This document shows positions 366-22,943 of a DNA stretch of 30,637 nucleotides, one piece after another. Where the stretch lies: positions 1-30,637 of IMG/VR virus record IMGVR_UViG_3300045825_000051; one strand, given 5' to 3'. Both the position numbers and the translations under genes were made by a program. A model generated the notes under the pieces. It did no database searches and was not told where the DNA came from. It was given only the letters and a program-made list of their open reading frames with translations. Numbering within the stretch: position 1 is the stretch's first letter; each line of letters opens with the position of its first letter. The stretch comes from a virus.

Positions 366-1706
366 TTAAAATAATTTTAATGCTTTCAGTAATGCGGATT
401 GCACAACGCCTTTGTCGGCAAGAACAGACATTACACGCTGATCCAGGCAACCATTAACAACTATATGTATTATTCGTACGGGTCGTTGCTGGCCTTGTCG
501 GCGCAGTCTTGCGTTAAATTGCTGATAATTTCCTAGCGACCACGTTAAACCAAACCACACGGCAACACATCCGCCGAGTTGTAAGTTGATACCATGCCCA
601 GCACTGGCAGGATGTGCAAGCAGTAGTTTTATACCGCCATCATTCCAGCGCGTGATTGTGTTTGGGTTCTTATCTAGTGCCACAGCCACAGGGAAGCGAG
701 TCAGTAACCGAGCAAGGTCGGACTTGTAGTTGTAAGCAATCAGGATATTTTCATCTGGATTGCTTTCGATTATCTCAGCAAGTGCATCGAGTTTAGCCGT
801 ATGTAGCTCTTCAAAATTGTGTAGATCGTCGGTATAAATTGCGCCATTGCACCACTGCAATAATTTATTCGCCAATACCGCAGCGGTTACAGCTTCAACC
901 TCTTCGCCGCTCGGCAACTCTGCAAATAGCGAGGCTTCAAACTCTTTATATTGTTTTAGGACTTTCGCTGGAAGTTGTACGGTTTCAACTAAATCAATTC
1001 GTTCGGGTAGTTCAAGATAATCCTCGGAACTCATGCTTAAAACTTTATCGGCTATGAGTCCGTGTATTTTATCTGCGCTACCTGTTCGTGGCGTGAATTT
1101 ATACCCCATAAAGTCACACTCAAAAAAGCGCGATTTATACCCGCCCATTGTTCGCCCTAGTCTCTCGCCAAAGTCGATCATATAAAGCTGTGACCATATA
1201 TCCAGCAACCCATTGGGCGATGGCGTACCGCTCAATAAAATAAAGTGCGTGGTATCGGGCAGTGTGCGCTTTAATGCTTTAAAGCGTTTAGACGATGGAT
1301 TTTTGAATGAGTCGCTTTCATCGATTACAACACAATCGAACGGCCATTTTTTGCCGTAATATAAAACCAACCATTCTATATTCTCGCGATTTATTACAAA
1401 CGCATCCGCCGTAACCATTAGTGCGGCCATGCGCTCGCGCTCTGATCCAGTACATACGCTCACACGCAAATGCGCGAGGTGTAGCCATTTTGCGCTCTCT
1501 TGTCGCCATACAGAATTAGCAACTCGCAACGGAGCAACGATCAACACGCGACGTACCGCGCAGCCGTCGAGCAAGTCACTAATTGCGGTCAGTGTGGAAA
1601 CGGTCTTGCCTAAACCCATATCGAGATATAACGCGCAACGCTTTTCCGATTTTATAAAGGCAATTGCCCTGTGTTGGTACTCATGCAAATCATCAAGGGA
1701 AGGCAT
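366..1706 (-). CDS. SNF2-like superfamily 2 DNA helicase
   Basis: Predicted 446-residue ATP-dependent DNA translocase or helicase of the SNF2/DEAD-like kind found in phage replication modules. Visible motifs in order are: Q-motif-like start (LHEYQ), Walker A GLGKT (31-35), DEAH-box variant DESD (129-132), motif III-like LLSGTP (157-162), motif V AGHGINLQ (from 369), and motif VI QFNARLRRQGQ (396-406) with both arginines. Both RecA-like lobes are therefore present. The ATG at 1706 is preceded by GGAGGG at about 6 nt and overlaps the end of the VRR-NUC gene by 14 nt, indicating coupled translation. Neighbours (nuclease, polymerase, SSB) place it in DNA replication or recombination. The precise substrate is not evident. 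Confidence 0.9.
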   Translation of the reverse strand: MPSLDDLHEYQHRAIAFIKSEKRCALYLDMGLGKTVSTLTAISDLLDGCAVRRVLIVAPLRVANSVWRQESAKWLHLAHLRVSVCTGSERERMAALMVTADAFVINRENIEWLVLYYGKKWPFDCVVIDESDSFKNPSSKRFKALKRTLPDTTHFILLSGTPSPNGLLDIWSQLYMIDFGERLGRTMGGYKSRFFECDFMGYKFTPRTGSADKIHGLIADKVLSMSSEDYLELPERIDLVETVQLPAKVLKQYKEFEASLFAELPSGEEVEAVTAAVLANKLLQWCNGAIYTDDLHNFEELHTAKLDALAEIIESNPDENILIAYNYKSDLARLLTRFPVAVALDKNPNTITRWNDGGIKLLLAHPASAGHGINLQLGGCVAVWFGLTWSLGNYQQFNARLRRQGQQRPVRIIHIVVNGCLDQRVMSVLADKGVVQSALLKALKLF

Positions 1707-1956
1707 ATATACCCTCCAGTGAATTGATTAGCCGTACATCACAACCCAACGCACGGCGTTTCGCGTGGTCGCGCTCTTGTAACTCGGTTGCTGTACATCC
1801 TGGGCGCTTTAATTCAACAAAAATTATTCGTCCATTCGGCAAGGTAACAAGCCGATCAGGTACAGACCTGCGCCCCGGCGATGTGAACTTTTCAGCCATT
1901 CCACCTAATGAGGCAACGTGTTTAACAAAGGCTTTTTCAATTTCTTTTTCTAACAT
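1693..1956 (-). CDS. VRR-NUC domain nuclease
   Basis: An 87-residue single-domain PD-(D/E)XK nuclease of the VRR-NUC family. The active-site pattern is visible: VPDR with D34, then IFVELKR with E48 and K50. GRRSVPDRLV followed by a short strand and FVELKRPG is typical of phage stand-alone VRR-NUC proteins, which act on branched DNA in recombination and replication. I chose the ATG at 1956 rather than one six codons upstream because it overlaps the polymerase stop as TGATG, a translational-coupling arrangement. The gene sits between polymerase and helicase, a common order in phage replication cassettes. A solo domain this short is normal for phages. Confidence 0.88.
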   Translation of the reverse strand: MLEKEIEKAFVKHVASLGGMAEKFTSPGRRSVPDRLVTLPNGRIIFVELKRPGCTATELQERDHAKRRALGCDVRLINSLEGIYAFP

Positions 1957-3725
1957 CACGCACCCACTTCGCAAAGTAGATTTTCAGCGGCGGTTATATA
2001 TTCGGCGTAATCAATATCCGTCGGGAAGTCGCCCAATAGCATCAACGGCTTTGCACCCGCGCTATTAGGTACTCGGTTGCTGTTCGTTTTGTAGTGGATA
2101 CACTCGTCATGGCGTACATCAGTCGAGTAATAAAATCGGATAGCTTTACCAAGATACTCACCTCGCCACGTTGCCCCGCCTGTTACTTTTCGCACGGTTA
2201 CGAATTGCCGAATGTCCTTACACTCGCGGATTGTTTTTTCTATCGGCGTACCTTTTGCGATACACGTAGCAACAGCGGAAAAGATAATAGGGCAATCTGG
2301 ATTCTTTGCAAGTCCAGTCGGTGCAAATATACCCTTTCCTTTTGTCTTTCCGTCCAGCTTCACAGCAACGTAGTTGTTGACATCCCGCGACGCAATCGCG
2401 AAATAGTTAGTACGCTCTAATTCGTATGACGTTTCAAGCTCCCAACCCCACGCAACCGACATTACTGCTTGTTCTACCGACTTTGCGCAATAGACAACAA
2501 TACCATCTGTATTCGCGCTGATAATGTGCGCGCCAACGGATTCAATACGTTCAATCAGCATTAACAGCGCGAGCTGGCCCGTGATGGTTGTCTGTATTAG
2601 TAAATCAGGTGCATAAAGTGCGCTGTATTTACTCCCTAACTTCCCAAAACTACCGTTTACACAAATTTTAAGCGTGTCGGCGGTTACTTTGTCACCATCA
2701 TGTTTGGCCTTTAAGCGTCGGGTAACGATTGATTGATACACGCGCAAGAACGGTTCCCCCATGCTTTTCGGCGCAAGCCGTTGTTGCAGGATTATGCTCG
2801 GATAGTAGCCAGCAACGTCCATGTCAAATAACAGCGTGTTTTCATCGATTCGTACATATTGCGATTTTTCACAGCTATGTAGTCCGCCTATCCCCATTTG
2901 ATACTCAGTCGCGGCGATCATAATTTTCTGATTTTTCAACCATTCAGGCATCTGCACCGCGCCATTCGCGCCAAGCGTAAAGCGTTCAGATATTAGCTTT
3001 TGGAATATCTCGTTTAAATCGCTACGCTGAAAAGTAATAATCTGCGGGTCAAGATACCGGAATATCTCGCTGTCTTTAATATCTGGCTTTTTGTATTTTT
3101 TGCCCGTTTCTTTTGATAGCTCTGAACAGATAACCGTTTCGGCAATCTGCGCATCTGATTTACTGCGAAGGTCTAGCCCATACTGCTCGGACATAGATAT
3201 GCGCAACGCAATTTGCGGTTTAAGCGTGTCGTATAGTAGCTTTGTCGTGTATAAGTCGTTGGCGCAATACTCGCGCATCAATTCGTATTCTGATGGAGAT
3301 ATGCGCGCATCTGGAGTAATTGGCAGGTCTTGTATCTTTTCAGCGTTAAGTCGTCCGCCGTAAATTTTAAGGCTGGACATACCTGGCGCAACTTCTATAA
3401 GGTCAATATGATTCCACGATTTAGGCGTGTGAATACCAGCATCATTACAAATTCGATAACTCGGCAGTTTTGATTTTATGATCGAATCGCATAATGCTTT
3501 AAGTTTGAGATTGTTCCAGCCCGATAGCGCGGCGGTAAGCATGGGCAAGTCAAAAGATAACCCATTAAAGCTGATTGTTGTGTACTTATTCATTAGTGCG
3601 CTAACCGTTTTAATGTCAAACGGCTGCGTATCGTGGAGTTCAAAGCTGCGAATTTTGCCAGTCTCAACGGACAAAAACGAGATTAGAAAATAATTTGAGT
3701 AGCATTCAATATCAAGGATTAGCAT
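1956..3725 (-). CDS. Family B DNA polymerase with 3'-5' exonuclease
   Basis: A compact 589-residue replicative polymerase. The proofreading domain shows Exo I DIE (D5, E7), Exo II NGLSFD (N54-D59) and Exo III YCAND (Y153-D157). The polymerase domain shows a YxGG-like site (YQMGIGG, about 275-281), motif A DVAGYYPSI (D303), motif B KICVNGSFG (K353, N357) and motif C NTDG (D407). In motif C the usual DTD reads NTD; the retained aspartate is the one that binds metal in family B enzymes. Only about 50 residues lie between motifs A and B, so no TPR2-like insertion is apparent and protein priming is unlikely. The start has no Shine-Dalgarno sequence; nine A residues directly precede the ATG. Confidence 0.93.
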   Translation of the reverse strand: MLILDIECYSNYFLISFLSVETGKIRSFELHDTQPFDIKTVSALMNKYTTISFNGLSFDLPMLTAALSGWNNLKLKALCDSIIKSKLPSYRICNDAGIHTPKSWNHIDLIEVAPGMSSLKIYGGRLNAEKIQDLPITPDARISPSEYELMREYCANDLYTTKLLYDTLKPQIALRISMSEQYGLDLRSKSDAQIAETVICSELSKETGKKYKKPDIKDSEIFRYLDPQIITFQRSDLNEIFQKLISERFTLGANGAVQMPEWLKNQKIMIAATEYQMGIGGLHSCEKSQYVRIDENTLLFDMDVAGYYPSIILQQRLAPKSMGEPFLRVYQSIVTRRLKAKHDGDKVTADTLKICVNGSFGKLGSKYSALYAPDLLIQTTITGQLALLMLIERIESVGAHIISANTDGIVVYCAKSVEQAVMSVAWGWELETSYELERTNYFAIASRDVNNYVAVKLDGKTKGKGIFAPTGLAKNPDCPIIFSAVATCIAKGTPIEKTIRECKDIRQFVTVRKVTGGATWRGEYLGKAIRFYYSTDVRHDECIHYKTNSNRVPNSAGAKPLMLLGDFPTDIDYAEYITAAENLLCEVGA

Positions 3726-3753
3726 TTTTTTTTGGGGGTAGCCCTATAAGTTA

Positions 3754-3775
3754 AAAACCCACTCCAAAGAGTGGG
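3754..3775 (-). terminator. Intrinsic terminator, leftward
   Basis: The inverted repeat CCCACTC (3758-3764) / GAGTGGG (3769-3775) has a 4-nt loop. Read on the minus strand the stem is followed by TTTTTAA, as in a Rho-independent terminator. It lies between the single-strand binding protein gene and the polymerase gene, so it would reduce expression of polymerase, nuclease and helicase relative to the binding protein. Confidence 0.75.
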
Positions 3776-3792
3776 CGTATATTTTACATCAA

Positions 3793-4311
3793 TTAAAATC
3801 CAACTTCGTCATCAAGCATATCAAAATCATTAACGCTGGCAGGTACGCCGCCATCACCAAACGGTTCGCCGTCTGCCGCAAATTGAACGCCTAACAGGTT
3901 GCAGTTGATTCTCTTCCCAAAGCCGTTATCTTGCGCCCACAGTTCGACAACCGCGTTTACATAGCAACCCGAATAAACGCGGTTGTCGTCTTCAGTCAAC
4001 GGCGTTTTGTCTTTGTCGATAACTAAAGGCCGTTTAGCATTCGCGCCCTTGATACTCATACAATCCGCATAACCTTCATACGCGGATTCGTCGCCATCTT
4101 TCAAACAGATTTTATCCGCGCCAAGCTTCGCACCTTTCAAACCGGACTTGATTAGGTCTGCGATTGCTGCTTGAATTTCTTTGATACTCGCGGCGTGCGT
4201 CTTTTTGTTCAGCAAGAATGTTGCTTCGTACTTAGTTTCAGTACCTTGAAAAACAGCTTTTTGAAATAGTGAAGGGAAAGACAAACGGACGTTTTTAATA
4301 GTGATTTTCAT
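3793..4311 (-). CDS. Single-stranded DNA-binding protein (DUF2815, Enc34 type)
   Basis: A 172-residue protein matching the DUF2815 family, whose structurally studied member is the single-strand binding protein of phage Enc34. Hallmarks are the N-terminus KNVRLSFPSLFQKA, the segment YEATFLLNKKTH, the central RPLVIDKD, and the VYSGCYVNAVVELWAQDN stretch of the OB-like fold. The C-terminus is acidic and ends in an aromatic residue (FDMLDDEVGF), as in SSB tails that recruit partner proteins. It should coat single strands during phage replication. AAAGGA lies about 9 nt before the ATG. A terminator follows directly, suggesting this protein is made in excess over the polymerase. Neighbours on both sides are replication nucleases and polymerase. 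Confidence 0.9.
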   Translation of the reverse strand: MKITIKNVRLSFPSLFQKAVFQGTETKYEATFLLNKKTHAASIKEIQAAIADLIKSGLKGAKLGADKICLKDGDESAYEGYADCMSIKGANAKRPLVIDKDKTPLTEDDNRVYSGCYVNAVVELWAQDNGFGKRINCNLLGVQFAADGEPFGDGGVPASVNDFDMLDDEVGF

Positions 4312-4339
4312 TTTCAGTTTCCTTTTAATTTGATTTTAT

Positions 4340-4355
4340 CGTGTCCTGTGACACG
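4340..4355 (-). other. Short hairpin in the leader of the SSB gene
   Basis: CGTGTC (4340-4345) and GACACG (4350-4355) form a perfect 6-bp stem with a 4-nt loop in the 69-bp gap between the DUF2800 and SSB genes. The minus-strand sequence after it (ATAAAATC) is not a U-tract, so it is not a clear terminator. It could protect or punctuate the SSB messenger. Confidence 0.4.
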
Positions 4356-4380
4356 AATAGAACTTTACTACAGCTAAAGA

Positions 4381-5505
4381 CTAAACGCAATCAAAATCGT
4401 TAGTACTTACGTTTATTGCCTGGCGTTTGTCTGATTCTGGTGCAATTGTCGGCGCGCCTTCTGGTTTTATTACGATCTGCTCAAGCAGTCCAGAATGTTT
4501 TTTACCGAGTAACTTTTCAGCTTGTACAACGCTGATTAACTTACGGGTATATAGGTCGTCGCCAAGCAACTCGGTTAAAAGCTCAACCGCAACGGTGTCG
4601 CTAACCCATGCCCGTAAACTACGTCCAGCTACTAGTTTAAAACCGTCGAACGGCGCACCTCTTTCAAGTCGCGATTTAATCAAGTCCTCAACGCTGTCCA
4701 ACCATGCGCAAATCAGTTTTTTACTATCAAGCGCAGCGCGCAGTTGGTCATCTGATAACGTGTCAGGATTCGGCGCGGAAACGTTGTCAAAGCCGCTTAA
4801 AATCGTTTGCTCCGTCAGCCGAAACAAGGCGGGGCAGGTTGCCTTTGCTTTACACCACTGACACGCCTTTTCAGACGGGACGCGGGGAGCATCGTCGGAT
4901 AGTGCCAATTCCGCGCCCTGTTTAATGCGTTCACCCCATAGCATTAACTCGTCGCGGGATAATGACCACTCGCTAATATGGTCTAGTCGTGGCTGGCAGA
5001 TACTCACGGTAACAATTTGAATGTTGTAGATCATGCCAAAGTCGGAAAGTGCACCCAACGCATATAAAATAGCCTGCGTGTTCTCTTCGGCATCAACGCG
5101 GATACCTTTGCCGTATTTAAGGTCTACAATATGTAGTGTATCGCCGTTTAAAATCATCGAGTCACACGTTCCAAACCCATCGCTAACCCAATCGCTAAAG
5201 TCAACACGGGTTTCAACAAGCAACTCACCCTTTATGCTGCGCACGTAATCAACGTATTGCTGCACGTTGCTGACCATTTCGTATGTCACGGTTATGCTAT
5301 CATTTTCAATTAGTGGTTTGCCTTCCCACTCATGGCAGTATCCACCACTATTTAAAACTAACTCGCCCAACTCATGCGCGGCAGTACCTTCGGCGGCGAA
5401 GATACTGGATGTGTTTACAATACCCTGTTCTGCGCGCACGCTACCTGGACAACCTAACCAGCGTGCGCTACCCGACGCGCTCAACTTCGCGTGTGCGATG
5501 CTCAT
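4381..5505 (-). CDS. RecB/Cas4-like PD-(D/E)XK nuclease (DUF2800)
   Basis: A 374-residue protein of the DUF2800 type, related to the RecB/AddB/Cas4 nucleases. Visible motifs are an early cysteine (C19 in WLGCPGS), AAHELGE (H44), GTCDSMI (D115), VDLKYG (D128, K130) and NTQAILYAL (Q144, Y148). A C-terminal cluster, C215-x2-C218-x5-C224, would combine with C19 into a four-cysteine iron-sulfur site, as in AddB and Cas4. It probably trims single-stranded DNA ends during replication or recombination. The ATG at 5505 overlaps the stop of the upstream gene (ATGA). Phage DUF2800 genes usually sit next to DUF2815, as here. Nuclease polarity cannot be read from sequence. Confidence 0.88.
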   Translation of the reverse strand: MSIAHAKLSASGSARWLGCPGSVRAEQGIVNTSSIFAAEGTAAHELGELVLNSGGYCHEWEGKPLIENDSITVTYEMVSNVQQYVDYVRSIKGELLVETRVDFSDWVSDGFGTCDSMILNGDTLHIVDLKYGKGIRVDAEENTQAILYALGALSDFGMIYNIQIVTVSICQPRLDHISEWSLSRDELMLWGERIKQGAELALSDDAPRVPSEKACQWCKAKATCPALFRLTEQTILSGFDNVSAPNPDTLSDDQLRAALDSKKLICAWLDSVEDLIKSRLERGAPFDGFKLVAGRSLRAWVSDTVAVELLTELLGDDLYTRKLISVVQAEKLLGKKHSGLLEQIVIKPEGAPTIAPESDKRQAINVSTNDFDCV

Positions 5506-5828
5506 ACCAGTGCACTCAGCTTGTTTTCAATTTCCGCGTATTCGCTAACGGGTATCGTGTCAATCGTGCGGTCTTTCAAAATTGCAACAATTGCCGCCTT
5601 TTTTGTACGATCCGAGCGAACAATACCCATGCACAATGCTTTAAGTTCTTCGGCTGTTGAGTGTGTGGCAGTCGGTTGCTCTGGAGCAGGTGTTTTCACA
5701 ACGGGCACTGGCTTTTCTGCCTTAGCAGGCGTTTCCTTTTGCTCAACGGGTGCGGGTGTTGCAACCATAACAGCAGTGAGTTTTTCAATTACGATGGTTA
5801 ATAATTCAATTTTAGATTCGAGTGACAT
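5502..5828 (-). CDS. Hypothetical protein, first gene of the leftward operon
   Basis: A 108-residue protein with three parts: an N-terminal helix (about 1-22, SLESKIELLTIVIEKLTAV), a Pro/Ala/Lys/Glu linker (about 24-55), and a C-terminal helical domain (about 58-108) ending in IENKLSALV. No enzyme motif is visible. It is first in the leftward replication operon, 34 bp downstream of the -10 element, and overlaps the nuclease gene by 4 nt. A small flexible-linker protein at the head of a replication operon could be an adaptor or loader, but this is a guess. The Shine-Dalgarno sequence is weak (GAAAG). Confidence 0.75.
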   Translation of the reverse strand: MSLESKIELLTIVIEKLTAVMVATPAPVEQKETPAKAEKPVPVVKTPAPEQPTATHSTAEELKALCMGIVRSDRTKKAAIVAILKDRTIDTIPVSEYAEIENKLSALV

Positions 5829-5927: not shown

Positions 5928-6104
5928 ATGATTAACAAGGTAATTATGTATTTCGGTTCACAGTCCGCGCTCGCAATCGCGCTGGGTGTAACTGAAGGAG
6001 CTGTATCACAGTGGGTGTCGAGCGGTGTTATACCACCCGCCCGAGCGGTACAAATTGAACGAATAACGGACGGAAAATTCAAGGCGATTGACTGGCAAAA
6101 ATAA
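5928..6104 (+). CDS. Cro/YdaS-like helix-turn-helix regulator
   Basis: A 58-residue DNA-binding protein starting MINKVIMYFGSQSALAIALG. It has a helix-turn-helix (about 9-45) of the Cro_YdaS kind: SQSALAIALGVTEGAVSQWV, then SSGVIPPARAVQIERIT, where the segment IPPARAVQIE is highly characteristic of this family. An AAGGGG ribosome site lies about 7 nt upstream. The gene is first on the rightward transcript and next to the divergent promoter-operator, the position of cro in lambdoid phages. It probably represses one or both promoters through the palindrome at 5870-5890. No cI-type repressor gene lies opposite, so it may be the only regulator at this switch. Confidence 0.85.
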   Translation: MINKVIMYFGSQSALAIALGVTEGAVSQWVSSGVIPPARAVQIERITDGKFKAIDWQK

Positions 6105-6133: not shown

Positions 6134-6154
6134 AAGAACAACGTAAACGGGTGA

Positions 6155-6163
6155 ATTATAACA
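6155..6163 (-). promoter_or_regulatory. Possible leftward extended -10 promoter
   Basis: The minus strand reads TGTTATAAT (TG-N-TATAAT) over the primase start. Nearly the same block, with the shared plus-strand sequence GGGTGAATTATA-N-CATGA, is found at 21380-21397, where it serves as the apparent promoter of the antisense HNH gene. No -35 is visible. A transcript from here would meet the leftward hairpin within about 50 nt. Confidence 0.35.
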
Positions 6164-8490
6164 TGAAAATCGCTATTGGAAGTAACGAAACAAGCAGCGC
6201 AATAATACATAAAGACGTAACTTGGCAGCAGATTGTTAAAAAGTACACAACTCATAAAGTAACCTCTAAAAAAGGTGGTGAATACGTTATTGGCGGTGAG
6301 TACAGCGGAAGCGTTCGACGCGAAGAGTTTATGATTGGTCGGTCATTATTGGTGGTTGATATTGATAGCTATCAAGGAGGTATCGACAATCTCGCATTTG
6401 ACTTGTCAATGTTGCCATTCGGTTTTGTCGCGTATTCATCATATAGCCATACATCAGCAAATCCCCGCATTCGCGTTATCGCACAACTATCGCGCATGGT
6501 TACACCGGACGAATATCGTATCATTTCACGCGATATTTGCGCGCAGATGCTTGTACCAATGTCTGCGATAGACGAATGCTCATTTGTACCTAATCAGGCA
6601 ATGTTCGCTCCGCAGCATCCAAAGGGTGGGGAGTTCTGGACAATGGTACAAGACGGTTGTGCTGTTTGTGTACCCAACTCCATTATGTCGCCCGCTGTAC
6701 GCGAGTCTGACGATTTTTGTGTAATGGTTGCATCACAACCATTAGATTTATCGGATATACAGGTTGCTGCGTATTTGGCGGCGTATAACCCTATTGGGTT
6801 AGATTACGATTCTTGGCTGCGTGTCGGAATGGCGGTATGTCATCAGTATAGCGGTGCTTTGACTGGCTTTGATATGTGGGTTGAGTGGTCAAAGCAGGAC
6901 ACAGAAAAGTTTGATTTGAGCGTAATGAGTAGAAAGTGGAAGTCTTTTGGCGGTTCGTCTAATCCGGTTACGATGGCATCCATCATTCAGCATATCAACT
7001 TATCAGGCGCGGTTGTTTCAACTTCTGGAACTTCAGGCGGATGGCTTGAGCAAATTGCAAATTGCGAAGACAAACACGCGTTAGAGCAGCTAATTCAGCA
7101 TGAAATTGCGCGAGATAAATCAATTGGTACGGTAGACCTTGCAGATTTAGAAAGTGCGGTTAAATTGCGCTTCGCCGAGTTTGGTGTAGTGCTTCGCGCA
7201 GACCCATTACGCAAATTATTTAAACCTAAACAAATGCGAGCATTCCCTGATATTGGGGGTGGGGAAACCCCACTCGAAACTATGGATAACCTTCGCGTGG
7301 TTTGTGATAACAATGACATTGTTATTAGGTACAACATGATTAAGAAAGATGACGAGATACTGATAAAGGACACGCAGTGGTCAATTGATAATTCAAAAAA
7401 TGCGTCAATAACCTGGTTGCGCTCGGCGTGTCACAAAGTTGAGATGCGCACAACTAACCTTAAAAACTTTGTAACCCTACTGGCAGATGGCAATCAGTTT
7501 AACCCTGTGGTCGAGTGGGTGAATAGCCGTGAATGGGATGGGGTTAGCCGTCTAAACGACCTATACGCGACGATCACCGAAAACAAAGACCTATGCAGCC
7601 GTGAACTAAAGGAGACGGTTGTACTGCGCTGGATGGTCGGTGCAATCGCTGCGGCGTTTAGTCCAGTGGGGGTTATGGTTCGCGGCGTATTGGTTTTTCA
7701 AGGTGAGCAGTACACAGGAAAAACACGATGGATTGAAGCACTCGCCCCTAAGGAGCTAGACTTGATTAAAACAGGTAGATCATTAGTTGTGCATGATAAA
7801 GATAGCGTAAAGCAAATTTTATCATCATGGATTTCGGAATTGGGCGAGCTGGATGCGACATTCAAAAAATCAGATATTGCCGCGCTGAAAGCGTTTATCA
7901 CTTCCGACATGGACGAATTGCGCAGGCCATACGCAGCGGCAGAGAGCCAATACGCCAGGCGCACTGTATTCGCGGCGTCTGTTAACGATTCTAAATTCCT
8001 CCAGGATGATACCGGCAACAGTCGTTTTATGGTTATCCCTATAATCGCTCTAAATCATGCGCATACGTTAGATATGCAGCAAGTATGGGCGGAAATATAT
8101 GTACTGTGGAAAAGTGGCGAAAAGCATTATTTGAGCGCGGATGAAATGGCAGCATTAAATTCACATAACGAAAACTTTACGGCTACCGACCCAATATTTG
8201 AAATGATTGCGAGTCATCTCAATTGGGAGTCTTTTTCACAGACAACCTGTAAATGGATGCAAGTCTCTGACGTTTTGCGCTGGATTGGTAAAGATAATCC
8301 GTCGAGGTTTGAGTCAATTTCGGCAGGTAAGGCAATCAAAAAAATTAACGGTGGAATTATTCGCAAGTCTCACGGTAAGCAACTTGTTGCTGTTCCCGAC
8401 GCGAAAAATGATTCGCTTTTATCTGAATTCGATAAAAGCAACCATGGGGGTAATAGGTTTGATTACCCCGAAGACCATATACCCTTTTAA
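6163..8490 (+). CDS. Primase-helicase (AEP-like / PriCT / VapE type)
   Basis: A 775-residue multidomain replication protein. The N-terminal part looks like an archaeo-eukaryotic-type primase: LLVVDIDSY (D66, D68), then SYSHTSANPRIRVI (H96, R102). A PriCT-like domain follows (about 195-275, with DYDSWLRVGMAVCHQYSG). The C-terminal half is a VapE/SF3-type ATPase: WDGVSRLNDL, Walker A GEQYTGKT (514-521), and SSWISELGELD as the Walker B region. It should prime and unwind at the phage origin. I prefer the ATG at 6163 to the GTG at 6151 because GGGTGA gives it a ribosome site and the GTG has none. The repeat-rich candidate origin begins inside its last codons. Confidence 0.88.
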   Translation: MKIAIGSNETSSAIIHKDVTWQQIVKKYTTHKVTSKKGGEYVIGGEYSGSVRREEFMIGRSLLVVDIDSYQGGIDNLAFDLSMLPFGFVAYSSYSHTSANPRIRVIAQLSRMVTPDEYRIISRDICAQMLVPMSAIDECSFVPNQAMFAPQHPKGGEFWTMVQDGCAVCVPNSIMSPAVRESDDFCVMVASQPLDLSDIQVAAYLAAYNPIGLDYDSWLRVGMAVCHQYSGALTGFDMWVEWSKQDTEKFDLSVMSRKWKSFGGSSNPVTMASIIQHINLSGAVVSTSGTSGGWLEQIANCEDKHALEQLIQHEIARDKSIGTVDLADLESAVKLRFAEFGVVLRADPLRKLFKPKQMRAFPDIGGGETPLETMDNLRVVCDNNDIVIRYNMIKKDDEILIKDTQWSIDNSKNASITWLRSACHKVEMRTTNLKNFVTLLADGNQFNPVVEWVNSREWDGVSRLNDLYATITENKDLCSRELKETVVLRWMVGAIAAAFSPVGVMVRGVLVFQGEQYTGKTRWIEALAPKELDLIKTGRSLVVHDKDSVKQILSSWISELGELDATFKKSDIAALKAFITSDMDELRRPYAAAESQYARRTVFAASVNDSKFLQDDTGNSRFMVIPIIALNHAHTLDMQQVWAEIYVLWKSGEKHYLSADEMAALNSHNENFTATDPIFEMIASHLNWESFSQTTCKWMQVSDVLRWIGKDNPSRFESISAGKAIKKINGGIIRKSHGKQLVAVPDAKNDSLLSEFDKSNHGGNRFDYPEDHIPF

Positions 8491-8518
8491 TATACCCCCG
8501 CTACAAGCCAATAACGGC

Positions 8519-8548
8519 GGGGCTTGCAGGGGATGGGGTAATAGGGGG
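8519..8548 (+). other. G-quadruplex motif
   Basis: Four G-tracts of 4, 4, 4 and 5 residues (8519-8522, 8529-8532, 8535-8538, 8544-8548) are separated by loops of 6, 2 and 5 nt, which fits the standard intramolecular G4 pattern. It overlaps the left arm of the inverted repeat and lies just past the primase-helicase stop. Confidence 0.65.
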
Positions 8549-8656
8549 TATAGAGAATTGAGTTTTAAATATATATAGGGGAAGGTATAGTGTAGTAATA
8601 CATATATATACCTTCCTATAGGCACATAGCAAAACACGCACCCCCTATCACCCCAT
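8533..8656. repeat. Nested inverted repeats around an AT-rich core
   Basis: Outer arms ATGGGGTAATAGGGGGT (8533-8549) and ACCCCCTATCACCCCAT (8640-8656) are 17 bp with one mismatch. Inside them lies a second pair, TATAGGGGAAGGTATA (8574-8589) and TATACCTTCCTATA (8607-8620), perfect apart from a 2-nt bulge. The DNA between is AT-rich (ATATATA tracts). The nested layout could extrude a cruciform or fold as a long RNA. No open frame with a ribosome site is present. Confidence 0.7.
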
Positions 8657-8753
8657 TACCCCCGAATGGCAAAAAAGCTTTATAAAACAATAGTTTAAGG
8701 CGGGGGTATATGAATTTAATCAATTTACTTGCAAATTTGTATACCCCTTGTAA

Positions 8754-8799
8754 TATTTATAGTAAATATAGTTGACATTTAATATAGTTACTATATAAT
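8754..8799 (+). promoter_or_regulatory. Rightward promoter with two palindromes
   Basis: TTGACA (8772-8777, exact consensus), 16-bp spacer, TATAAT (8794-8799, exact consensus). TATTTA-N3-TAAATA (8754-8768) lies just upstream, and TATAG-N3-CTATA (8783-8795) overlaps the spacer and the -10. The 18-bp box TTTAATATAGTTACTATA (8778-8795) matches 17 of 18 positions in the leftward promoter at 328-356. It drives the 53-residue gene 38 bp downstream. Two palindromes on a consensus promoter imply repressor control. Confidence 0.85.
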
Positions 8800-8836: not shown

Positions 8837-8998
8837 ATGGATGCCAAGACTACAAAAATAGCAAGTGAACTTGTCGCAATGTACGACGCCGCAGTTAACG
8901 CCGAAAACTTGGCAGAAATGGAACGTATTGTTGGTATCGTAACATCGTGCCCTAATCGCCCTTTGAAGCGCGAAGTTATGCGATTGCTTGATTTGTAA
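8837..8998 (+). CDS. Small hypothetical early protein, 53 residues
   Basis: Starts MDAKTTKIASELVAMYDAAV and ends REVMRLLDL. It is predicted to be all-helical and soluble, with a mid-protein Cys-Pro (SCPNRP) turn between two helices. An AAGGGG ribosome site stands 6 nt before the ATG, and a consensus promoter lies directly upstream, so expression is likely strong and early. I do not recognise a family. Position as first gene after the origin-like region and ahead of the regulator genes suggests a host-takeover or regulatory role, which is inference only. Confidence 0.7.
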   Translation: MDAKTTKIASELVAMYDAAVNAENLAEMERIVGIVTSCPNRPLKREVMRLLDL

Positions 8999-9176: not shown

Positions 9177-9201
9177 TCACATAATCAACGGTGAGGTGCA
9201 C

Positions 9202-9378
9202 ATGACAAAAGAAGAATTTAAGGAAGCGCGTGATAAACTCGGGTGGGATGTTTACGAGGCTGGAAAAAAGCTAGGCGTGACATTCGGGATGATCTACAAA
9301 TACCAGTCCGGAGAGTGTGCTATCAGCAAAACGGTTGAAATACTCATATCTAAATCTTTGAAGGAGATAGCAAAATGA
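9202..9378 (+). CDS. XRE-family helix-turn-helix regulator
   Basis: A 58-residue protein, MTKEEFKEARDKLGWDVYEA and onward, with a helix-turn-helix at about 14-45: LGWDVYEAGKKLGVTFGMIY followed by KYQSGECAISKTVEILI. It is a minimal one-domain XRE/Cro-type DNA-binding protein. I use the ATG at 9202, which has GAGGTG about 4 nt upstream, rather than an upstream non-ATG start. It has its own extended -10 promoter and overlaps the ParB-like gene by 4 nt (ATGA). It is a candidate ligand for the TATAG-N3-CTATA palindromes at 330 and 8783, untested. Confidence 0.8.
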   Translation: MTKEEFKEARDKLGWDVYEAGKKLGVTFGMIYKYQSGECAISKTVEILISKSLKEIAK

Positions 9379-10097: not shown

Positions 10098-10291
10098 GCG
10101 TATTACAACAGCTTAAAACCCTGCGAGATCGGCGCATAACTGAATTGAAAAAAACTGAGGTTGTTCCTGGTTTTTTCTGGATTGGAAAAGACGATCAATC
10201 ATCCCAGCGGATTAAAATTGAAATCGCCCGGTACAACGAGCAGATACGCCGGATTGAATCGGGTGGTGAGTATTGTAGGAGGGCGGCGTGA
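10094..10291 (+). CDS. Small hypothetical protein upstream of methyltransferase
   Basis: A 65-residue basic protein beginning MSVLQQLKTLRDRRITELKK and ending in CRRAA. Two helices rich in Arg/Lys and Gln (about 1-20 and 35-55) flank VVPGFFWIGKD. It overlaps the ParB-like gene (ATGA) and the methyltransferase (GTGA). A strong AGGAGG near its end (10277-10282) serves the next gene. No family recognised; a small coiled or nucleic-acid-binding protein is possible. Confidence 0.65.
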   Translation: MSVLQQLKTLRDRRITELKKTEVVPGFFWIGKDDQSSQRIKIEIARYNEQIRRIESGGEYCRRAA

Positions 10292-11025
10292 ATGAGCTGG
10301 CACTTTTTGCAGGGGGGGGAGGTAGCGTGTTGGCCGCAGGATTGCTTGGATGGCGCACCGTCTGCGCTGTTGAAATTGATTCCGGAGCAAGAGGAATCAT
10401 GCTCGACCGCCAGAGAGACAGAGTTATCGAGCAATTCCCTATCTGGGATGATATCAGGACATTCGACGGTAAGCCATGGCGCGGACACGTTGATGTTATC
10501 ACCGGCGGATTCCCATGCCAGGACATTAGTCAATGCGGAAAAGGCGAAGGTCTTGACGGCGCTAGATCAGGATTGTGGAGCGAACAAAAACGAGTCATTT
10601 GCGAAGTTAAGCCACGACTCGTTGTTGTGGAAAACAGCCCAATGCTCACTGTTCGAGGACTTGGAGTTGTCCTTAGAGACTTGGCCGGAATGGGGTTTGA
10701 TGTCCGGTGGGGAGTGTTTCGAGCTTCGACCATTGGAGCGGCACACCATCGAGCGCGGATTTTCCTACTTGCTTACACCGACAGCGCAATCTTGGAAAGC
10801 ATGGACATTCCGAAACCCGCTTGCATTGATACGAAAAAATCACGCAGACGGCAATCTGCAAGAGCAATTGATGCGGCTCTACCAGCGGATGACTACGCCG
10901 CGATGCCAAGAGATTCTGATGATGTGGCCAGAGGGATGGACGGACTCAAAGCCACTGGCAATGGATGGGTTCCTGCAATGGCAGCGGGAGCAGTTTATCA
11001 ATTGTGCAAAGGAATAGCAGCATGA
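10288..11025 (+). CDS. DNA (cytosine-5) methyltransferase, compact
   Basis: A 245-residue m5C methyltransferase. Motif I (LALFAGGGGS with AVEID), motif IV with the catalytic cysteine (GGFPCQDIS, C77), motif VI ENS (115-117), motif VIII HHRARIF (153-159) and motif X-like TGNGWVP (223-229) are present in order. Only about 60 residues lie between motif VIII and the end motif, so the target-recognition region is unusually short. Cognate restriction enzymes are not visible; a solo phage methyltransferase usually protects phage DNA from host restriction. The start is GTG at 10288, 5 nt after AGGAGG. The stop overlaps the next gene (ATGA). Nearly the whole gene is overlapped by a second open frame (10292-11017). 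Confidence 0.9.
   Translation: MNELALFAGGGGSVLAAGLLGWRTVCAVEIDSGARGIMLDRQRDRVIEQFPIWDDIRTFDGKPWRGHVDVITGGFPCQDISQCGKGEGLDGARSGLWSEQKRVICEVKPRLVVVENSPMLTVRGLGVVLRDLAGMGFDVRWGVFRASTIGAAHHRARIFLLAYTDSAILESMDIPKPACIDTKKSRRRQSARAIDAALPADDYAAMPRDSDDVARGMDGLKATGNGWVPAMAAGAVYQLCKGIAA
10292..11017 (+). CDS. Overlapping open frame nested in the methyltransferase (+1 frame)
   Basis: A 241-codon ATG-to-TAG frame lies entirely within the methyltransferase gene, shifted by +1. The same AGGAGG (10277-10282) sits 9 nt before its ATG. The product has protein-like segments: SPADSHARTL (70-79, opposite the catalytic GGFPCQD), SFAKLSHDSLLWKTAQCSLF (102-121), ETWPEWGLMSGGECFEL (129-145), LTPTAQSW (161-168) and WPEGWTDSKPLAMDGFLQWQ (212-231, opposite motif X). 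From memory, annotated phage and prophage proteins carry SHARTS, WKTSQ, ETWPRWGMMRNGE and GWTDLKPLATDKF patterns of this kind; I cannot verify that here. It may be a genuine second protein or a frame kept open by methyltransferase codon constraints. Confidence 0.5.
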   Translation: MSWHFLQGGEVACWPQDCLDGAPSALLKLIPEQEESCSTARETELSSNSLSGMISGHSTVSHGADTLMLSPADSHARTLVNAEKAKVLTALDQDCGANKNESFAKLSHDSLLWKTAQCSLFEDLELSLETWPEWGLMSGGECFELRPLERHTIERGFSYLLTPTAQSWKAWTFRNPLALIRKNHADGNLQEQLMRLYQRMTTPRCQEILMMWPEGWTDSKPLAMDGFLQWQREQFINCAKE

Positions 11026-18194: not shown

Positions 18195-18653
18195 ATGGCA
18201 AAAGGCGTGTACGAAAGAGCCAGCTTAAAAGTAAGGTTTGAGCAAAAGGTATTAAAAGTTGATTCTGGTTGTCATGAGTGGCAGTCAACTCTTCACCGAG
18301 ACGGGTATGGAAAAGTTTGGGTAATTGATAGGCAGGTTCCGGCGCATCGTGCTTCCTATCAGTTATATAAAGGCGACATACCGGCAGGAATGATGGTGCT
18401 GCACACTTGCGATAATAGAAAATGCGTTAATCCAAATCATTTGTATGCTGGCGATGCAAAGCAGAACACCGCTGACAAGATAGCCAGATGCCAATTTTAT
18501 GGGAGAATGAAAATACCATTTGAAACAATAACTGAAATTAGGCGCTTATATGCAACAGGTAATTTTACGCAAAATGAATTAGCTGCAAAATACGGTATCG
18601 GGCAAACGCAAGTGTCCCGATACATATTAAACAGACAACGAATTTTAAAATAA
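18195..18653 (+). CDS. HNH homing-type endonuclease with C-terminal HTH
   Basis: A 152-residue stand-alone HNH endonuclease. The HNH_3-type core reads GCHEWQ (25-30), HRASYQLYKGDIPAG (51-65), LHTCDNRKCVNPNHL (69-83) with H70 and the C-VNPNH end. A helix-turn-helix tail (about 113-148, NELAAKYGIGQTQVSRYI) probably gives target specificity. AAAAGGAGG precedes the ATG. It is wedged between the coat gene and the next head gene with its own promoter, as expected for a free-standing homing endonuclease that cuts phages lacking it. Gene order around it would be intact without it. Confidence 0.9.
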   Translation: MAKGVYERASLKVRFEQKVLKVDSGCHEWQSTLHRDGYGKVWVIDRQVPAHRASYQLYKGDIPAGMMVLHTCDNRKCVNPNHLYAGDAKQNTADKIARCQFYGRMKIPFETITEIRRLYATGNFTQNELAAKYGIGQTQVSRYILNRQRILK

Positions 18654-20158: not shown

Positions 20159-20866
20159 ATGAGTATGCTTACAATGGTTCAATCGGTATGTGTACGGCTG
20201 GGGCTACCCTCACCCAATGCAGTTGCAACATCAACAGACAACCAGTATCTTCAATTGCTCGCGCTACTCAATGAGGAAGGCGCAGAGTTATCTAATCGCA
20301 CACAGTGGCAAGCTCTACAGAAAGAGGCTTCATTTGTAACGGTTGCTGCTGAGATTCAAGGAGCAATCGCCACTATTTGCCCTGGTCTTGATTACGTTGT
20401 AAACGACACGATCTGGAATCGCACCATCCGCAGGCCAGTATTCGGGCCATTGGGTGCGCAGTATTGGCAACAACAAAAAGCCATGTTCACGGCTGGCCCG
20501 TGGAATCAATATCGGATTGTAGGCGATCAGCTTAAATTCTTCCCTGCCCCGGCTGCTGGTCAAGATTGCTATTTTGAGTATTCATCCAAGGCATTCGCAA
20601 CAGATAGCACTGGCGCAACGCCTAAAACTGCATTTACAGCAGATTCAGATTTAAGCCTGCACAGCGAAGACATTATGACACTCGGTCTGATATGGCGTTG
20701 GAAGGCTAATAAAGGGCTTGATTTTGGCACGGACTATCAGAAGTATGAAAACCGCGTAATCAATGCGATGGGGCGCGATGCTGCAAAGCCTGTTTTGAAT
20801 TGCGGTGAAGCCAGATACGATATCATGCCTGTAATAATGGTTGCATCTGGCTCGTGGGCTGTTTAA
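20159..20866 (+). CDS. Head-to-tail adaptor, P22 gp4-like
   Basis: A 235-residue protein of the gp4/adaptor kind that seats below the portal and closes the head after packaging. The N-terminus TMVQSVCVRLGLPSPNAVAT, then QYLQLLALLNEEGAELSNRT and later FFPAPAAGQDCYFEYSSKAF, is typical of phage adaptor proteins in the P22-like arrangement (adaptor then gp10-like hub). The later GLIWRWKANKGLDFGTDYQK segment also matches. Its stop codon overlaps, tail to tail, the stop of the antisense HNH gene by 4 nt. The ATG at 20159 has AAAGGG upstream. Confidence 0.8.
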   Translation: MSMLTMVQSVCVRLGLPSPNAVATSTDNQYLQLLALLNEEGAELSNRTQWQALQKEASFVTVAAEIQGAIATICPGLDYVVNDTIWNRTIRRPVFGPLGAQYWQQQKAMFTAGPWNQYRIVGDQLKFFPAPAAGQDCYFEYSSKAFATDSTGATPKTAFTADSDLSLHSEDIMTLGLIWRWKANKGLDFGTDYQKYENRVINAMGRDAAKPVLNCGEARYDIMPVIMVASGSWAV

Positions 20867-21357
20867 ATATGAGTCCAACTCTTGCGTTGAATAATATTGG
20901 CGATTGTTTGAGGGTTTGCATTCATTTCCTTGGCTATTTTGGAAATACTACCGCGCGTGCCATCATACGATCCTCTTATGTAGTAAATATCTTTGTCTTG
21001 AAAAATGCTGACGGGGTTTTGTTGGCCTCTCGGCATTTTCTTACCAAGAACATCAAACGAATAATTAACATTTTCCTTGGATGTCATCCATTCAAGATTT
21101 TCAATCCTGTTATTAGACCGATTGCCGTCTTTATGGTTGCATTGCATATCCGCACGATCACCGATAAACGCAGCCAGTACAAGCCTATGAACGTAATGAT
21201 TTTTTTTAATATTATTCTTGCACAGGCATATTCTGCAATACATATCACTTCTTCTATCAAAAGAAAGAATTTTTCCGTATCTGTTTTTTATATCTCCATA
21301 ATTAGACACAAAATAAATCCCTTCGTAGTTGAATACATCGCGCCATTCTTTGCTCAT
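20863..21357 (-). CDS. Antisense NUMOD4-HNH homing endonuclease
   Basis: A 164-residue stand-alone homing-type endonuclease. NUMOD4 region: EWRDVFNYEGIYFVSNYGDI (4-23). HNH core: HRLVLAAF (57-64), then CNHKDGNRSNNRIENLEWMT (73-92) with H75, N79 and N83. A C-terminal helix-turn-helix (about 135-160, SISKIAKEMNANPQTIANII) would bind the target. The ATG at 21357 has TAGGAG upstream on the minus strand and an extended -10 promoter beyond it. It is the only minus-strand gene in the structural arm and fits between adaptor and hub genes with a 4-nt tail overlap, the mark of a mobile insertion that spares both neighbours. Confidence 0.92.
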   Translation of the reverse strand: MSKEWRDVFNYEGIYFVSNYGDIKNRYGKILSFDRRSDMYCRICLCKNNIKKNHYVHRLVLAAFIGDRADMQCNHKDGNRSNNRIENLEWMTSKENVNYSFDVLGKKMPRGQQNPVSIFQDKDIYYIRGSYDGTRGSISKIAKEMNANPQTIANIIQRKSWTHI

Positions 21358-21385
21358 AATATCAACTCCTATATTAGATGGGTGA

Positions 21386-21394
21386 ATTATACCA
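21386..21394 (-). promoter_or_regulatory. Extended -10 promoter of the antisense HNH gene
   Basis: The minus strand reads TGGTATAAT, an exact extended -10 (TG-N-TATAAT), 29 bp before the HNH start. No good -35 is visible. The surrounding block recurs at 6149-6166. Confidence 0.65.
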
Positions 21395-21416
21395 TGATAG
21401 AAAAGGATATGCGCAA

Positions 21417-22943
21417 ATGAAAATCCCAACAAACACCCGCCGCACCTCTCGCACAATCTCGCTACCAGCTCCAGTTGGTGGACTCAATGCGCGTGATTCT
21501 TACGCTGATATGAAAGCCACGGACGCGGTGAAGATGGAGAATTGGTTTCCTATCCCAATGAGCGTACAGCTACGGGCTGGATGTACGGTTCATGCCAGTG
21601 GGTTGGGTGCTTCTGTAGATACCGTAATGGCATATAACGCAGGAAGCACTCAGAAACTCATTGCAGTGGCGGGGACGAACTTTTATGACTGCACGGCTGC
21701 TGGGGCGGTTGGTGCTGCGGTAACGACCTGCACCAATTCACGTTGGCAGCATGTCAACATGGCAACGGCTGGCGGATACTTTTTATCATGTGTGAATGGC
21801 GTGGATGCGCCAAAGTTGTTTGACGGAACAACATGGAGCAATCCAGCGATTACAGGCGTGACCGTAACCGATCTAATAACGGTCACGGTACACATGAATC
21901 GTCAATGGTTTGTGCAAAAAAACACAATGAAAGTGTGGTATCTGCCTGTTAATTCCATCGCAGGTGCTGCTGCATCAATTGACTTTTCAGGGCTATTCAA
22001 GCGTGGAGGGTATCTCATGTCTATGGGTAGCTGGACGATGGATGCGGGTTCTGGAATGGATGACCATGCTGTATTCATCTCTAGCGAGGGGGAGGTTGCT
22101 GTTTATCGCGGCACTGACCCGGCAAGCTCGACCACATGGGCGCTCGTTGGCGTTTACTATATCGGTGCGCCAATTGGTCGTAGATGCCTGTCTCAGTACG
22201 CTTCAGACCTGCTGATTATCTGTCAGGATGGTTTAATGCCGATGTCTAAGGCGTTAATGTCTAGCCGCGTTAGCAACAAGGTTTCTCTGTCGGATAAAAT
22301 ACAGCACTTAACCAGCCAGGATATTACGGATTTCGGAGCAAACTTCGGATGGCAGTGCAGATTGTACCCTCAGACCAACATGCTGATTCTCAATGTACCC
22401 GCTGGTAATAATGCTAATTATCAATATGCAATGAATACCATAACCGGGTCGTGGTGCAAATTCACCGGATGGAATGCACAATCTTGGGAGTTGTACAAGG
22501 ATCAAATATACTATGGTGATGGAGCAGGGAATGTATGCCTTGCGTGGTACGGCACAAGCGATAACGGCGCGAATATCAATAGCGAAGTAGTGCAAGCCTT
22601 TCATTATTTTGGTTCGCAGAATCTCAAACATTTCAAACTGTCGCGCCCTATATTCAACGCAAATACGTCAAATGTAGGATTAACAATCGGGTTGAATTTT
22701 GATTTTAATTTCAATGAGCCACTATCCAGCCCAACAGTAGGTTCTGCATCTATAGCAATGATCTGGGGTACATCAAAATGGAATGTGGGAGCATGGGGAG
22801 CATCTGATGCAGTATATCAAAACTGGCAGACCTCAGGAGGAATCGGATACTGTGCAGGAATGCACATATCCACAGCATCAAATTCCGCGTCTGTATCATG
22901 GCAATCAACAACGCATATATTCGAGGTAGGGAACGGGCTATGA
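21417..22943 (+). CDS. Tail hub / packaged-DNA stabilisation protein, P22 gp10-like
   Basis: A 508-residue beta-rich protein. The N-terminus ISLPAPVGGLNARDSYADMK with VKMENWFPIP is the standard start of gp10-like hub proteins (PA-x-GGL-N-RD ... A-x-x-LENWFP). Later segments IGRRCLSQYASDLLIICQDG and GSWCKFTGWNAQSWELYKDQ fit the same family. It joins the adaptor to the tail needle and fibres and keeps DNA inside. I chose the ATG at 21417 (AAAAGGA upstream) over a start 13 codons earlier. It follows the adaptor gene in the normal order, interrupted only by the antisense HNH gene. The stop overlaps the next start (ATGA). Confidence 0.85.
   Translation: MKIPTNTRRTSRTISLPAPVGGLNARDSYADMKATDAVKMENWFPIPMSVQLRAGCTVHASGLGASVDTVMAYNAGSTQKLIAVAGTNFYDCTAAGAVGAAVTTCTNSRWQHVNMATAGGYFLSCVNGVDAPKLFDGTTWSNPAITGVTVTDLITVTVHMNRQWFVQKNTMKVWYLPVNSIAGAAASIDFSGLFKRGGYLMSMGSWTMDAGSGMDDHAVFISSEGEVAVYRGTDPASSTTWALVGVYYIGAPIGRRCLSQYASDLLIICQDGLMPMSKALMSSRVSNKVSLSDKIQHLTSQDITDFGANFGWQCRLYPQTNMLILNVPAGNNANYQYAMNTITGSWCKFTGWNAQSWELYKDQIYYGDGAGNVCLAWYGTSDNGANINSEVVQAFHYFGSQNLKHFKLSRPIFNANTSNVGLTIGLNFDFNFNEPLSSPTVGSASIAMIWGTSKWNVGAWGASDAVYQNWQTSGGIGYCAGMHISTASNSASVSWQSTTHIFEVGNGL

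Follow-up and report, generated by a model that had tools for sequence, protein, structure and literature searches.

What is the function of the dense array of short repeats directly behind the primase-helicase gene of this virus? The stretch analysed here (the window) covers a virus record of 30,637 bases, which is probably a fragment because genes run off its end. We describe the position and layout of the element, its recurrence among relatives and the covariation of its iterons with the wing of the neighbouring protein. With a probability of about 0.88, we read positions 8446-8747 from sequence comparison as the predicted phage origin, which the adjacent VapE primase-helicase would bind, melt, load with helicase and prime bidirectionally.

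Repeat array and putative initiator gene

The window contains exactly four copies of the octamer GGGGTAAT (8447+, 8462-, 8535+, 8655-), all inside 216 bp and in alternating orientation, as the first-pass annotation had described. The expected count was 0.40, and four copies were reached by 0/100 shuffles. This description was incomplete: four copies of GGGGTATA (8491-, 8545+, 8703+, 8740-) and one of GGGGTGAT (8647-) are part of the same set. The array comprises about ten GGGGT-type iterons, which surround an AT-rich core and point in either direction, in the order + - - - [+ +] core [- -] + -. Two short iteron sets, 8535+/8544+ and 8647-/8655-, flank the AT-rich region (8553-8639). Eight of the window's 13 GGGGTA hexamers fall inside 310 bp, where 0.05 would be expected from the rate elsewhere. 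By local-composition scoring the array was not the most extreme k-mer cluster of the window, so the case for an origin rests on conservation.

The array follows directly on the putative initiator gene, which ends at 8490. The first octamer was indeed located in the last codons of this gene, both the 17-bp and the inner inverted repeat reported earlier were recovered, and no U-tract terminator was found at the element, as stated before. Cumulative GC skew, which had been suggested as a marker of the origin, did not turn at the array. It tracks gene direction in this contig, a fragment, and the G-C minimum of the window lies at 5651, near the gene-direction switch. An Rfam search of the element gave no match. 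The exact 18-mer GGGGTAATAGGGGGTATA matched four contigs and was rejected, all four matches being judged chance (in a tail-protein gene or unrelated).

In Pfam, the initiator matched PriCT_2 (PF08707, E 5e-16) and the VapE-like family (PF05272, E 4.5e-50, 170.6 bits against a curated cut-off of 25). Its AlphaFold2 model had a mean pLDDT of 76.8, most of the helicase and C-terminal part exceeding 90. The best structural match was 7pds (Z 26.3, residues 361-753; 380 residues superposed, rmsd 4.8), which was also the sole PDB match by sequence (profile E 7.1e-36). The 7pds title names PriRep1, which we take to be a SaPI protein; the structure is said to be that of Qiao et al. 2022, from a SaPI. 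By profile and structure comparison, the initiator is an AAA+ helicase with the PriRep fold. Residues 681-748 adopt a winged-helix fold in the model, in the order helix-strand-helix-helix-strand-strand (pLDDT mostly >90). On its own, the C-terminal domain gave weak structural matches, mostly to winged-helix DNA-binding domains (best Z 5.3), and no significant match in Foldseek.

By analogy with SaPI Rep, we infer binding, melting, loading and bidirectionality. The C-terminal winged helix would bind the GGGGTAAT/GGGGTATA iterons, the G-rich bases at the iteron start being read by the wing tip and those at the iteron end by the beginning of the recognition helix. The opposed iteron sets may seat helicase assemblies on each side of the AT-rich core, which the AAA+ helicase would melt, loading itself. 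The loaded primase-helicase would then prime bidirectional replication, as proposed for SaPI Rep.

Several other features of the window were recorded. A 53-aa ORF under the promoter at 8772-8799 (8837-8998, +) had no Pfam or PHROGs match. The long ORFs 10288-11025 and 10292-11017 (both +) use different frames of nearly the same stretch; one encodes a C5 cytosine methyltransferase, the other (241 aa) a plausible-looking protein ending ...MMWPEGWTDSKPLAMDGFLQWQ. Either both genes are genuine and overlap, or the frame is at fault. HNH-endonuclease-like ORFs (by eye) lie among the virion genes at 18195-18653 (+) and 20863-21456 (-).

Table 1 Coordinates of the predicted origin, its initiator gene and adjacent features in the window.
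Feature	Position	Strand	Evidence
Primase-helicase, putative initiator, 779 aa, PriCT_2 + VapE-like AAA+ helicase	6151..8490	+	Pfam, structure match
C-terminal winged-helix domain, residues 681-748, predicted iteron reader	8191..8394	+	AlphaFold2 model
Recognition helix start, residues 718-721, second predicted contact	8302..8313	+	Second-ranking window cluster; covariation
Wing tip R738-K739-S740-H741-G742, predicted determinant of iteron class (K-x-H-G with GGGGT)	8362..8376	+	Window scan, rule tests
Iteron 1 GGGGGTAAT, within last codons of primase-helicase gene	8446..8454	+	
Iteron 2 GGGGTAAT	8462..8469	-	
Weak iteron GGGTATAT	8477..8484	-	
Iteron 3 GGGGGTATA	8491..8499	-	
G4-capable run	8519..8548	+	Sole G4 motif of window
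17-bp inverted repeat, 94%	8533-8549/8640-8656		
Iteron 4 GGGGTAAT, left pair nearest core	8535..8542	+	
Iteron 5 GGGGGTATA, left pair nearest core	8544..8552	+	
AT-rich core, predicted melting region, 68% AT vs 53% in window	8553..8639	.	
Inner inverted repeat, 100%, within AT-rich core	8580-8589/8607-8616		
Partial iteron GGGGGT, in right arm of 17-bp inverted repeat	8640..8645	-	
Iteron 6 GGGGTGAT, right side, nearest core	8647..8654	-	
Iteron 7 GGGGGTAAT	8655..8663	-	
Outlying iteron GGGGGTATA	8702..8710	+	
Outlying iteron GGGGTATA	8740..8747	-	
Sigma70-type promoter TTGACA-16-TATAAT, perfect (12/12), facing gene at 8837	8772..8799	+	

Recurrence of the layout behind VapE genes

A search of viral contigs with the single protein returned no relative. 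Relatives were gathered from viral contigs and bacterial genomes, and 97 non-redundant VapE loci were scored. Iteron clusters were called in 530-bp scoring windows, at a 7-mer log10p <= -6 with both orientations present. Such clusters occurred in 47% of the scoring windows beginning 170 bp upstream of the VapE stop (97 loci), compared with about 1% (range 0-4%) elsewhere within 6 kb, overlapping neighbour windows excepted. Across relatives, adjacent same-direction iterons were mostly 8-10 bp apart and the gap between inverted iteron sets had a median of 92 bp. The AT content of the core exceeded that of its own locus in 36 of 39 cases.

The first-pass annotation held that loss of the octamers in close relatives would speak against an origin. 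The nearest relatives (L014-L016, 62% identity) carry GGGGGTAAT iterons at equivalent places, and L014/L015 also retain the core motifs TATATAGGG and CTTCCTATAG. Remoter relatives keep the layout with different iterons (GTGACAT, AGGGTAAC, AGGGCATT, GGGGTCA, AGTGCA and others), and there the repeat changes together with the wing of the protein. At the sequence level, the layout is common to lineages and the repeat is lineage-dependent.

The iteron module tracks the VapE gene through differing gene neighbourhoods. In several relatives it is followed by a VRR-NUC-like nuclease and a helicase, 3' of the origin on the plus strand, whereas in the window both lie elsewhere on the minus strand (nuclease by eye), in a block that also encodes a DNA polymerase and other replication genes (366-5828). 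L014 also has a TTGACA shortly past its origin.

Among cultured phages, arrays with this layout stand behind the VapE helicase in Streptococcus PH15 (CGGTAGCA, 10 copies), Enterococcus phiFL4A (GGATAC, 12 copies), Yersinia YeP5 (AGACAACC, 7 copies) and Corynebacterium StAB (GGAACAAC, 6 copies). Paenibacillus Bloomfield has an iteron array of nine CTGCAACA copies, in which the right-hand set was not seen. A similar array follows the VapE helicase of the satellite Javan739, and the layout is matched in S. thermophilus SW30 and phiARI0460-1. No such array was found in Lactococcus 1358, Cellulophaga phi3:1, Bacteroides BT638P6 or ctype202, and no iteron array stands behind the related gene in the cultured relatives Mano, Mica, FoX3, Persinger, PPpW-3 and ECO1230-10. 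The array behind the VapE gene is therefore common, not universal. A DNA-level search of cultured phages for the origin sequence gave no hit. Related helicases were seen in cultured phages of Proteobacteria (L006, L009, L010, L011, L012, L013), with no iteron array behind the gene.

Wing tip and iteron class

Iteron similarity followed C-terminal-domain similarity when the helicase was accounted for (partial 0.189, 0/500 permutations); the converse, iteron against helicase similarity with the C-terminal domain accounted for, was not clear (0.063, p 0.118). Covariation picked out residues 739-742 at the wing tip and residue 721, where the recognition helix starts; residue 721 covaried with iteron base 8. 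Averaged over all positions, mutual information differed little between the C-terminal and helicase parts; the signal is confined to few positions. When 378 four-residue windows were scanned across both parts, those at the wing tip ranked 1 and 2 (0.83 and 0.80, median 0.45), followed by an overlapping window and then by windows at the recognition-helix start.

A first wing rule was fixed before new loci were fetched. Of the 45 non-redundant loci then collected, 18 combined a prediction with a clear class, and the rule was right for 17 of the 18, many of the prospective AGGG loci coming from one broad clade. As coded, this rule failed at L200, where a KRTHNG wing goes with GGTG iterons, and it was refined as a result: K-x-N-G predicts AGGG, K-x-H-G predicts GGGG, R-S/A-N-G predicts AGTG and R-T predicts GGTG. 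The refined rule, partly written after the first prospective set was seen, fits 53 of 54 (all non-redundant loci with a call), against 40 of 54 by nearest helicase relative. A second, small new set gave 3/3. The wing was readable in 82 loci, 28 of which gave no iteron call. Genomes of one bacterial order contained mostly remote relatives, so they provided no further test set and were left out of the test sets. The phage studied here fits the rule with a K-S-H-G wing and GGGG iterons, its locus having belonged to the rule-deriving set.

We consider it fairly probable that VapE-type phage initiators follow a code in which the wing tip sets the iteron start according to the refined rule and residue 721 the iteron end. 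The repeat class follows the wing tip, which links the initiator to the repeats. Together with the VapE-adjacent clusters and the layout of Sfi21 and the PICIs, this covariation favours the first-pass suggestion of an origin recognised by the primase-helicase.

Wing and iteron might match through shared ancestry alone, both being inherited without any contact, and the element could then still be an origin. The loci have common descent, phylogeny was controlled for by nearest-neighbour and rank-based comparison, and class is also partly predicted by the whole C-terminal domain (0.77) and by helicase neighbours (0.67). We nevertheless regard this explanation as unlikely: in 14 of 14 loci whose nearest helicase relative differs in class, the wing agrees with the iterons that the locus itself carries, and two parts of the domain that are expected to touch DNA stand out among the 378 windows. 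In the natural pair L071/L316, the helicase regions are 96% identical, the wings read SHG and SNG, and the iterons are GGGG and AGGG, respectively.

It is quite improbable that the repeats are instead operators through which a regulator (Cro/YdaS-like, 5928-6104; HTH, ~9196-9378; or the primase) controls the promoter at 8772-8799. The last iteron lies 25 bp to the left of this perfect promoter, there are small HTH genes close by, and initiators often autoregulate. However, most iterons flank the AT core rather than the promoter, their sequence tracks the primase's own wing residues, and the array accompanies VapE genes in differing neighbourhoods.

A G-quadruplex or large stem-loop, acting as an origin by secondary structure (cf. 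pRN1, BIP-1) or as a transcription end, is the least credible reading: the G4 motif and the 17-bp inverted repeat both exist, and stem-loops behind primase-helicase genes have been proposed as pRN1 origins (PMC4234260), but the inverted repeat is made of iterons that face opposite ways, the layout is retained in iteron classes that lack G runs (ATGTCAC, AGTGCA), and there is no U-tract. The G-quadruplex motif noted at first pass is present; a role for it found no support, and it was rejected as a conserved origin part, with G4 motifs in 9/62 related origins. The G4 run is probably a by-product of the G-rich iterons.

Comparison with known replicons

Phage origins are seldom recognised from sequence. 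If the predicted origin is true, the origins of many VapE-helicase phages could be found, and the initiator would indicate which iteron class each of them uses. If the wing-tip code is also true, origin specificity would be readable from the protein sequence, and the compatibility of phage and satellite origins could be predicted. Natural pairs of near-identical helicases with different wings make this specificity directly testable. In the literature covered, with most subscription journals outside it, we found no report of a wing-to-iteron code, nor any that describes such origins as typical of VapE phages in general. The layout is already known from PICIs; the novel part would be the proposed wing-to-iteron code, which appears to be new.

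Replicons with an origin directly 3' of a primase-SF3 helicase-winged-helix gene, as predicted here, include the pRN1 ORF904 replicon and phage BIP-1, where an origin with stem-loops was proposed behind such genes (PMC4234260). They differ in that the stem-loop is the proposed recognised feature, without iterons. SCCmec Cch2 has a putative origin with repeats 3' of the helicase gene, bound by the helicase's C-terminal domain (PMC7581432), which resembles our prediction. It differs in its three AAGTG direct repeats, its D5-like helicase and its location on a chromosome cassette. In Streptococcus phage Sfi21 (NC_000872), a 302-bp non-coding region directly behind a D5-type primase/helicase gene is annotated as the origin. 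As in the window, paired iterons stand on each side of an AT-rich core behind the helicase/primase gene, whereas the iteron is AGTAAC and the helicase of the Pox_D5/DUF5906 type, not VapE.

The PICI/SaPI rep-ori (Ubeda 2007, as cited in PMC7581432) has a layout in common with this element, including the position 3' of the initiator gene. The C-terminal domain of SaPI Rep recognises iterons 3' of its own gene (PMC7581432), and the iteron-flanked layout has been described in PICIs and termed unique there (PMC6092414). Here, the layout occurs with a different iteron sequence in a phage that carries polymerase and virion genes of its own. The window carries terminase, portal and DNA polymerase genes, whereas PICI satellites lack virion genes and depend on a helper; it is thus a phage, and only the origin type is common with PICIs. 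Given the phages found here and Sfi21, the layout has a wider distribution than PICIs. A layout called satellite-specific also occurs in phages, and this bears on where satellites got their replicons.
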